DNA of 64,000 nt from Elusimicrobiota bacterium. GTDB taxonomy: Bacteria > CG03 > SLGR01. Location: positions 1-64,000 of the forward strand of contig PWEK01000061.1 of the NCBI GenBank assembly GCA_003553445.1, given 5' to 3'. This document shows, piece after piece, positions 24,317-25,935 of this stretch (positions within the stretch are counted from its first letter, which is position 1; each line of letters starts with the position of its first letter). A program made the translations under genes and the position numbers. Below the pieces are notes generated by a model that saw nothing but the letters and a program-made list of their open reading frames with translations, had not been told where the DNA came from and ran no database searches.

Positions 24317-24766
24317 TTATGAAGAGGATTTATTCTTTTCTTCAAATATTTCTTTTATTTCAGGGTTTTTTATGGAAGATGTTTCCAGTTTTTCAGAAAG
24401 AATATTGATTTCTCTGGCTGTCTCTTTAAACTCGTCCCCTTTTCTTAAATTGATTTTTTCATTAAATTTACCGCTGTTAATCTCTTTTAATGTTTTCTCA
24501 AGTCTAAAAACAGGCCCTACTATCTTGCCGGAGAGGAAGATTCCGGCCAGGAATGCAAATCCAAGAATTACTACCATCCTGCTGAGATAATTACTCCAAC
24601 TTATTTCTTCAAGAATATTTACCATCTCAAATCTGCGGGACAGTTCATAGTATAATAAGGAAATTGAAGCCACAGCAGCAATCAATACAAATATTAAAAT
24701 TGTCAGAGCGTATTTAAACTGATATTTCTTTCTGCTTAAGTATTTTTTTCTTTTATAATCTTCCAT
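24317..24766 (-). CDS. Stand-alone two-TM HAMP-domain membrane protein (start re-assigned to MEDYKRKKYL)
   Basis: Two TM helices followed by HAMP-like GPVFRLEKTLKEINSGKF...RKGDEFKETAREIN. The track ORF start at 24820 lies inside rnpB. Confidence 0.7.
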   Translation of the reverse strand: MEDYKRKKYLSRKKYQFKYALTILIFVLIAAVASISLLYYELSRRFEMVNILEEISWSNYLSRMVVILGFAFLAGIFLSGKIVGPVFRLEKTLKEINSGKFNEKINLRKGDEFKETAREINILSEKLETSSIKNPEIKEIFEEKNKSSS

Positions 24767-24779
24767 TTTAAAAAAATAA

Positions 24780-25019
24780 TTCAGGCGGCTCAGTAAGCCG
24801 GATTCTGTTTTAACGGTCATTTATCTTTGCGGCCTACCCGGGCCTTTTAAACTGCGAGCAACAGCATAAGGCCCCTATTTGACCTTGCTTCAGGCGGGGT
24901 TTAGCCTTTTCACTACAGCTTACCTGTACCTTGTTTCTGTGCCACTTTCCCGCCATGCTCTATGAAGTCCGGACTTTCCTCTTCCTTTACCGGGAAGCGA
25001 CCGATCATCGCCGCCTGAA
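24780..25019 (-). ncRNA. rnpB: RNase P RNA, compact bacterial form
   Basis: P1 TTCAGGCGGC/GCCGCCTGAA, P4 strands GAGGAAAGTCCGG and ACAGAATCCGGCTTA, GCAAGGTCAAATAGGGG, CCCGGGTAGGCCGC. Confidence 0.92.
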
Positions 25020-25028
25020 ATCCGTTTT

Positions 25029-25733
25029 TTAATCTTCCATATAAAGGTATCTGCTGCAGCCGTCACAACGCACCATCTTCTCCTCCTGTATAACCTCATT
25101 AATGGTTTGAGGTCTAAGATGTATGTGGCACCCGCTGCAGCTTGTGCCATCGGCTTTTGCAACAGCTATACCCTTTCTAACTTCGCGAAGTTTTTTATAT
25201 TCTTTTATGAGCTCAGGATCTATGCTTTCTTCCAAGGGCCTTATTTTTTCTTTCACTTCACTAAGGTTTCTTTTCATCTTTTCAATATCCCCCCTGTAAG
25301 ATTCCTTCTTTTTTTCTATGTTTTCCTTTTCGCTGTCAAGAAGCTTTTTTTCTTCTTCTATCTTTTCTTCTGTATTGTCAATCTCTTCATAAATCTCAAT
25401 TATCTCACTCTCAACCCTGTCGATTTTATTTTCAACCGATTTAATCTCTTTCTGCATGGATTTATATGCCTCGTTGCTTTTTAGTGTATTGAGTTTCTCT
25501 TTATTCTTTTTTACAGTTTCTTCATTTTTCTGCAATTCAATTTCTTTTTCCTTAAGTTTAACTTTAATGTTCTTTAACGCTTCCTTAAAATCTTCTATAT
25601 TCTTTTTAAATTTTTTCTTTTTATTATCTTCTTCTTCTATGAGCTGGGGAAGCTCACATAGCCTGTCCTTTATGTCGTCTTTTATGTTGTCTAACTTTTG
25701 AAGTTCAAGCAGTTTTTTTATTTCTTCTTTCAT
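25029..25733 (-). CDS. Coiled-coil C4 zinc-ribbon protein (CT398/HP0958-like)
   Basis: Long coiled coil plus C-terminal CSGCHIHLRPQ...MVRCDGCSRYLY zinc ribbon. Confidence 0.85.
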   Translation of the reverse strand: MKEEIKKLLELQKLDNIKDDIKDRLCELPQLIEEEDNKKKKFKKNIEDFKEALKNIKVKLKEKEIELQKNEETVKKNKEKLNTLKSNEAYKSMQKEIKSVENKIDRVESEIIEIYEEIDNTEEKIEEEKKLLDSEKENIEKKKESYRGDIEKMKRNLSEVKEKIRPLEESIDPELIKEYKKLREVRKGIAVAKADGTSCSGCHIHLRPQTINEVIQEEKMVRCDGCSRYLYMED

Positions 25734-25745
25734 TTTTCCTTTTCA

Positions 25746-25822
25746 TGGTGGGCAATGCAGGACTTGAACCTGCGCCCTTTCGGATGTGAACCGAACGCTC
25801 TTGCCAGCTGAGCTAATTGCCC
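25746..25822 (-). tRNA. tRNA-Val(CAC), CCA encoded
   Basis: Minus: GGGCAAT acceptor / ATTGCCC; anticodon loop TTCACAT closed by TTCGG/CCGAA; T arm GCAGGTTCAAGTCCTGC; ACCA end. Confidence 0.93.
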
Positions 25823-25858: not shown

Positions 25859-25935
25859 TGGTGGGCCCACCAGGACTCGAACCTGGGACAACCTGATTAT
25901 GAGTCAGGTGCTCTAACCAACTGAGCTATGGGCCC
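25859..25935 (-). tRNA. tRNA with CAT anticodon (elongator Met or Ile2), CCA encoded
   Basis: Minus: GGGCCCA/TGGGCCC acceptor; loop CTCATAA closed by CCTGA/TCAGG; T arm CCAGGTTCGAGTCCTGG. Confidence 0.92.

Follow-up and report, generated by a model that had tools for sequence, protein, structure and literature searches.

The RNA subunit of bacterial RNase P meets its substrate through CR-II, CR-III and P11, on which the tRNA elbow stacks, through P4, which touches the acceptor stem, and through L15, which base-pairs with the CCA end (PMC8509007). In the E. coli enzyme A233 senses the tRNA, and a set of docking contacts places L14 and L18 into P8, L8 on P4 and L9 on P1 (PMC9433436). P7, P10, P11 and P12 form one coaxial stack in Thermotoga maritima (PMC4919922). 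A survey of RNA types found P9 in every type and P8 missing only from archaeal type M (PMC2858038), which is also devoid of P6, P16 and the P15 recognition loop and keeps P9 (PMC4919922, PMC2858038). Archaeal type T RNAs (Pyrobaculum) have lost nearly the whole S-domain (PMC4919922, PMC5839562), and the RNAs of CPR bacteria commonly lack P13, P14, P16 and P17, some of them also P12 and P18 (PMC8172020).

The stretch of DNA analysed here (the window; 64,000 nucleotides from an Elusimicrobiota bacterium) carries on its minus strand, at 24780–25019, an rnpB gene whose predicted RNase P RNA measures 240 nt from P1 to P1. An Rfam search matched the whole of model RF00010 (positions 1–367) to 24777–25018 with 141.1 bits (gathering score 100) and an E-value of 1.2e-44, and RF00010 was the best model of its clan for 24780–25019. 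Bacterial type B RNAs are distinguished by P5.1, P10.1 and P15.1, which replace P6, P16 and P17. Type B features were not found here: RF00010 outscores the type B model (RF00011) within the clan, and P6, P16 and P17 are present. The E-value, six syntenic homologues and covariation (described below) exclude a chance match, and on this sequence evidence the identification of the minus strand of 24780–25019 as a genuine rnpB is secure. A sequence-only reading of the window that preceded our analysis had proposed a naturally miniaturised bacterial RNase P RNA. The motifs that it quoted all lie at their positions on the minus strand, and its proposal is upheld by the RF00010 match and by equally short RNAs in relatives from the same order. 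A second full-length rnpB, which that reading had named as evidence that would count against it, was not found: the whole 2.2-Mb genome gave a single RF00010 match.

The predicted catalytic domain could be traced helix by helix. P1 is formed by TTCAGGCGGC (25010–25019) and GCCGCCTGAA (24780–24789), with compensatory changes in seven pairs, and P2 by CGGTC (24999–25003) and GACCG (24814–24818). The P3 hairpin CTTCC...GGAAG (24981–24997), already recognised from the sequence, is confirmed by compensatory changes in four of its five pairs. Both strands of the P4 pseudoknot helix in the catalytic core, AAGUCCGG with its bulged U (24969–24976) and CCGGCUU (24795–24801), are invariant in all six members of the order and are flanked by the universally conserved nucleotides. 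P5 pairs 24964–24967 with 24888–24891. The P6 pseudoknot joins GAGCA (24956–24960) to TGCTC in the P17 loop (24856–24860) and is marked by one compensatory pair; compensatory changes are also found in both helices of the P16/P17 arm (24840–24874). The 5′ strand of P15 (24881–24884) pairs with 24831–24834, within an element (24831–24838) that also contains the L15 GGU (24836–24838; indexed on E. coli rnpB), which pairs with the tRNA 3′ CCA. The tRNA genes examined end in an encoded CCA, matching this GGU, with the exception of one that is cut at a contig end. At P18, a loss that the sequence-only reading had not listed, the RF00010 alignment places no residues at 24 model positions. The catalytic domain (P1–P6, P15–P17 and the L15 GGU) is thus shown, as predicted from the alignment, to lack only P18.

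The specificity domain appears in a much reduced form. The 5′ strand of P7 (24949–24955) runs directly into P10 (GG), with none of the 30 model positions of P8 and P9 occupied, and the opposite strand (24892–24898) combines P10 (CC) with the 3′ strand of P7; this arrangement is indicated by the Rfam alignment, by the consensus fold and by covariation, which affects three pairs of P7. GGCGGG (24954–24949) indeed lies opposite CCCGCC (24898–24893), as had been noted, but of what was then called P7 only four G-C pairs belong to that helix and the other two are P10. Likewise, AAAGTGGCACAGAAA is present within this enclosure and is now assigned to P10/P11 plus CR-II, and the small hairpin TACAG-GTAAG-CTGTA (24914–24928) is P12, shrunk to 5 bp and displaying two compensatory pairs. 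The 5′ strand of P10/P11 (GUGGC, 24941–24945; placed by the Rfam alignment, the six-member alignment and the consensus fold) is followed by CR-II in J11/12 (ACAGAAA, 24934–24940), the element that binds the tRNA elbow (PMC8509007). CR-III in J12/11 (GTGAAAAG, 24906–24913) is followed by an Rfam deletion of 43–44 positions, with one residue at the 44 model positions of P13 and P14. The invariant 3′ strand of P11/P10 (GCUAAAC, 24899–24905) includes 24901, which in E. coli rnpB numbering corresponds to the tRNA-sensing A233 (PMC9433436). The covariance model therefore places P8, P9, P13 and P14 as deletions, all four of which the sequence-only reading had reported as lost, and the alignment shows a predicted S-domain from which they have been removed by clean excision.

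Support for these pairings came from an alignment of the six order members, in which 67 pairs were named on the window sequence. Standard pairs occupy 95.6% of 387 cells, both sides have changed in 23 of the 67 pairs, and none of 500 shuffles matched either the pairing percentage or the covariation score. Sliding the alignment by one column lowers pairing to below 50%, although this control somewhat favours the named pairs because they were chosen on the window sequence. Two-sided changes are found in three pairs of P7 and two of P12; the pairs of P10/P11 and P4 never vary, so that covariation is silent on them. When the S-domain was folded independently as a consensus, the same single rod was predicted, and a fold of the single sequence also gives it (weakly, z −1.6). 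In each of the six RNAs of the order, exactly 29 nt separate P4 from CR-II, compared with 57 in E. coli and 66–80 in a sister family; a slightly different measure gives 28 in the order and 57–59 in the 18 of 30 unrelated, well-scoring RNAs in which the motifs were found. These analyses, drawn from six RNAs in fragmented draft assemblies (five of them labelled as metagenome-assembled genomes (MAGs)), show the predicted S-domain to be a single rod of P7/P10-P11-J11/12-P12.

The searchable set contained 16 species of the phylum (labelled Elusimicrobia by NCBI and treated as a separate phylum in the search taxonomy), and a clear rnpB was found in 12 of them, six from the window's order and six from the sister family. 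The order RNAs, from four families, span 242–262 nt by Rfam and have P8 and P9 deleted in every case, whereas those of the sister family span 303–346 nt and retain P8 and P9 as two hairpins, with nothing at P13/P14 or P18. Since the sister family keeps P8/P9 and is nonetheless devoid of P13/P14/P18, the loss seems to have been stepwise; the simplest history, by parsimony on these two groups, would be that P13, P14 and P18 were lost before the groups split and P8 and P9 later in the window's order. This sequence would make mechanical sense, because L14 and L18 dock into P8, which had then already lost two partners. The sister-family RNAs also have CCAAGCAGT at J5/15 rather than the usual CCAAATAGG, and an extra hairpin in the P16/P17 arm. 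No rnpB match was obtained in two other members of the order (66% and 88% complete). The phylum members without a convincing rnpB were G001, G007, G011 and G013 (G011 having only a 66-base match, E 8e-4), and a search of these four genomes for the CR-II pattern with one mismatch allowed was unsuccessful. Incomplete assembly (66–89%) is probably the reason, though G001 and G011 are 88–89% complete.

Wherever their contigs extend far enough, the genomes of the order share one arrangement around rnpB: rpoD, a Zn-ribbon gene, rnpB and a HAMP gene, then the cell-division genes named below. In the window the upstream neighbour (25029–25733, minus strand; Pfam Zn_ribbon_9 and CT398 coiled coil) and the downstream HAMP-domain gene (24317–24766, minus strand) are both conserved, and the latter is followed by mraZ, rsmH, ftsL, ftsI and murE, cell-division names that were assigned from reading of the ORFs. 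The RNA gene starts ∼10 nt past the upstream stop codon, with ∼13 nt between its end and the probable start of the following gene; genes for tRNA-Met (25859–25935) and tRNA-Val (25746–25822) lie upstream on the same strand. No promoter-like site was found directly before rnpB. Given the close spacing and the same-strand tRNA genes, a shared transcript of the enzyme RNA and its substrates may exist. Two sub-threshold Rfam matches to ‘Plastid-ycf2 5UTR’ on the plus strand (25861–25935 and 25748–25822) are antisense images of these two tRNA genes, which suggests that this family model contains antisense tRNA sequence.

The architecture appears to be rare. When 84,980 species of bacteria and archaea were scanned for closely spaced exact matches to the P4, CR-II and J5/15 motifs, five contigs were returned, all from MAGs labelled ‘Elusimicrobia bacterium’ and all from the window's order. 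Of 30 class A RNAs with high scores, 18 carry the same motifs at any spacing, so that a good part of the divergent cases would escape a scan of this kind. A search of 386 genomes with a less strict pattern from P4 to CR-II recovered the six order members and two other matches; the latter, from unrelated genomes, do not resemble RNase P RNA and fit the chance rate given by the reversed pattern (four hits). No viral contig was found to have the same architecture. Outside the order, the shortest whole-model match above the cut-off was 292 nt among 145 genomes (mostly one per family), and in 100 genomes of a small-genome phylum that we take to be the mycoplasmas no whole-model Rfam span was shorter than 278 nt. 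The RNase P RNA of Mycoplasma fermentans is 276 nt long. An unrelated genome with a normal 385-nt rnpB has a second RF00010 match of 239 nt and 64.8 bits (L111; G132:C72:6956-7194), for which a contaminant, a fragment and a divergent copy are all candidates.

The order RNA resembles type A (RF00010; E. coli, Thermotoga maritima) in having P1–P7, P10–P12, the P6 pseudoknot, P15–P17, the L15 GGU, CR-II and CR-III, and an RnpA partner, and differs from it in the absence of P8, P9, P13, P14 and P18 and in its length (240 nt, compared with an average of ∼374 nt; PMC7191817). Judged by its sequence features, it would thus count as class A in catalysis and substrate binding and depart from that class at P8/P9, P13/P14 and P18, the last three of which are known to vary in CPR and archaeal type A RNAs. 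The sister-family RNAs share the absence of P13, P14 and P18 and have identical CR-II and CR-III, but retain P8 and P9, and their P16/P17 arm is longer. The type B RNA of M. fermentans and those of CPR bacteria are also reduced bacterial RNAs; they lose P12 and other peripheral helices, and are not described as having lost P8 and P9 together. Absence of P8 is shared with archaeal type M, but the order RNA has P6, P16 and L15 and is devoid of P9, and so does not fall within that type. Type T is similar in its extreme reduction, its retention of P6 and its absence of P18 (PMC5839562), but has a degenerate S-domain without the CR-II/CR-III module, whereas CR-II, CR-III, P11 and P12 are intact here. 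The parallel with type T drawn from the sequence alone consequently stands for the degree of reduction and is otherwise loose: hardly anything of the S-domain survives in type T, and the binding site is kept here. Our literature search, which reached a minority of RNase P papers, brought up no account of an RNA that has lost P8 and P9 together but retains the elbow site.

That elbow site appears to be fully preserved. CR-II (ACAGAAA) and CR-III (GTGAAA) are invariant in all 12 phylum members with a clear rnpB, the position equivalent to A233 is an invariant A, and the binding site comprising these elements and P11 is, as read from the alignments, intact and invariant. The protein partner is likewise ordinary. 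Elsewhere in the genome rnpA lies in the usual order dnaA, rpmH, rnpA, yidD, yidC and encodes a protein of 110 amino acids with a normal Pfam match (PF00825) that also matches solved RnpA chains; PF00825 is found in 13 of the 16 phylum genomes, consistent with a single small RnpA partner. RnpA scores are lower in the sister family (32–47 bits) than in the window's order (62–80 bits). A search of the 16 phylum genomes for a protein-only RNase P (HARP, PF08745) found none, whereas the control search was positive in four genomes. There is no sign of a compensating RnpA domain, though a change within RnpA is conceivable.

We considered whether the short RNA might be an artefact (an assembly deletion, a pseudogene or a contaminant), since the host assembly comprises 142 contigs and has an estimated contamination of 5.6%. 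The same architecture, at the same locus and with compensatory changes, is present in five other independent assemblies, so that an artefact is next to inconceivable; an assembly deletion, which the sequence-only reading had itself raised together with the prospect of full-size relatives, is ruled out by the syntenic 242–262 nt RNAs of six order members from four families. That reading had also suggested a greater reliance on protein for T-loop recognition; in such a scheme RnpA or some additional protein would do most of the T-loop reading, as has been supposed for archaeal type T. Five helices have been lost, no new RNA–RNA docking motif is visible (P12 is not capped by a conserved tetraloop), and archaeal RNAs missing an S-domain element need a protein complex that holds two tRNA anchors (PMC8509007). 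The invariance of CR-II, CR-III and the A233 equivalent (and the retention of P11) nevertheless argues strongly against this idea, as does an RnpA that is ordinary in length and context and without an added domain. RnpA in known structures, moreover, contacts the C-domain and the 5′ leader and not the T-loop. We therefore regard protein-based T-loop recognition as very improbable. On the sequence and its covariation, we infer with considerable confidence that this is the organism's functional RNase P RNA, a type A derivative of ∼240 nt that works like an ordinary bacterial RNase P.

How such an RNA might hold its two domains in register is a more tentative matter. The missing helices make the L8-P4, L9-P1, L14-P8 and L18-P8 contacts impossible, along with that of P9 A118 on A233, and every known inter-domain docking partner of L8, L9, L14 and L18 is, by this predicted structure, gone. 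P7, P10 and P11 are as many base pairs long as usual and normally stack coaxially, so that the ruler from elbow to active site would be intact even without P8 and P9. The elbow would then stack on CR-II/CR-III, the CCA end would pair with L15 and P4 would perform the chemistry, with domain orientation set by P5/P7 stacking, RnpA and the bound substrate. Orientation by substrate and RnpA is plausible because the S-domain is flexible even in the free E. coli holoenzyme, where most of it is not resolved in one class (PMC9433436). Disruption of the P8/P18 contact lowers the activity of E. coli RNase P RNA in vitro (PMC5839562), and the 240-nt RNA alone may therefore be weak. A variant of the preferred reading, differing in what sets the domain angle, is that RnpA or another factor replaces domain–domain docking (rather than T-loop recognition), leaving the RNA alone inactive or mis-oriented. 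All known inter-domain tetraloop contacts are missing and something must set that angle; RnpA has no extension, however, and the disorder of the free E. coli S-domain indicates that substrate-induced orientation may suffice, and we consider such replacement possible but rather doubtful. For the preferred reading in its strongest form, the chances seem evenly balanced: this would be a distinct structural type restricted to a single uncultured order and smaller than any other bacterial form that we know of, with no docking contacts at all and kept in register only by the continuous coaxial rod, RnpA and the substrate.

If this is true, the conserved P8/P9/P14/P18 docking network would be something that a natural RNase P with just one small protein can do without. 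P8 and P9 together make up the hub between the two domains, and the order appears to have dropped this hub with all its partners while keeping the elbow site and an ordinary RnpA; it would thereby separate the gripping of tRNA from the locking of domains, which in E. coli are difficult to study one without the other. An ordered evolutionary series would also emerge, from full-size RNAs, through those that keep P8 and P9, to the rod only, and the order RNA may serve both as a compact natural ribozyme for structural work and as a natural test of the minimal RNA that a cell needs.
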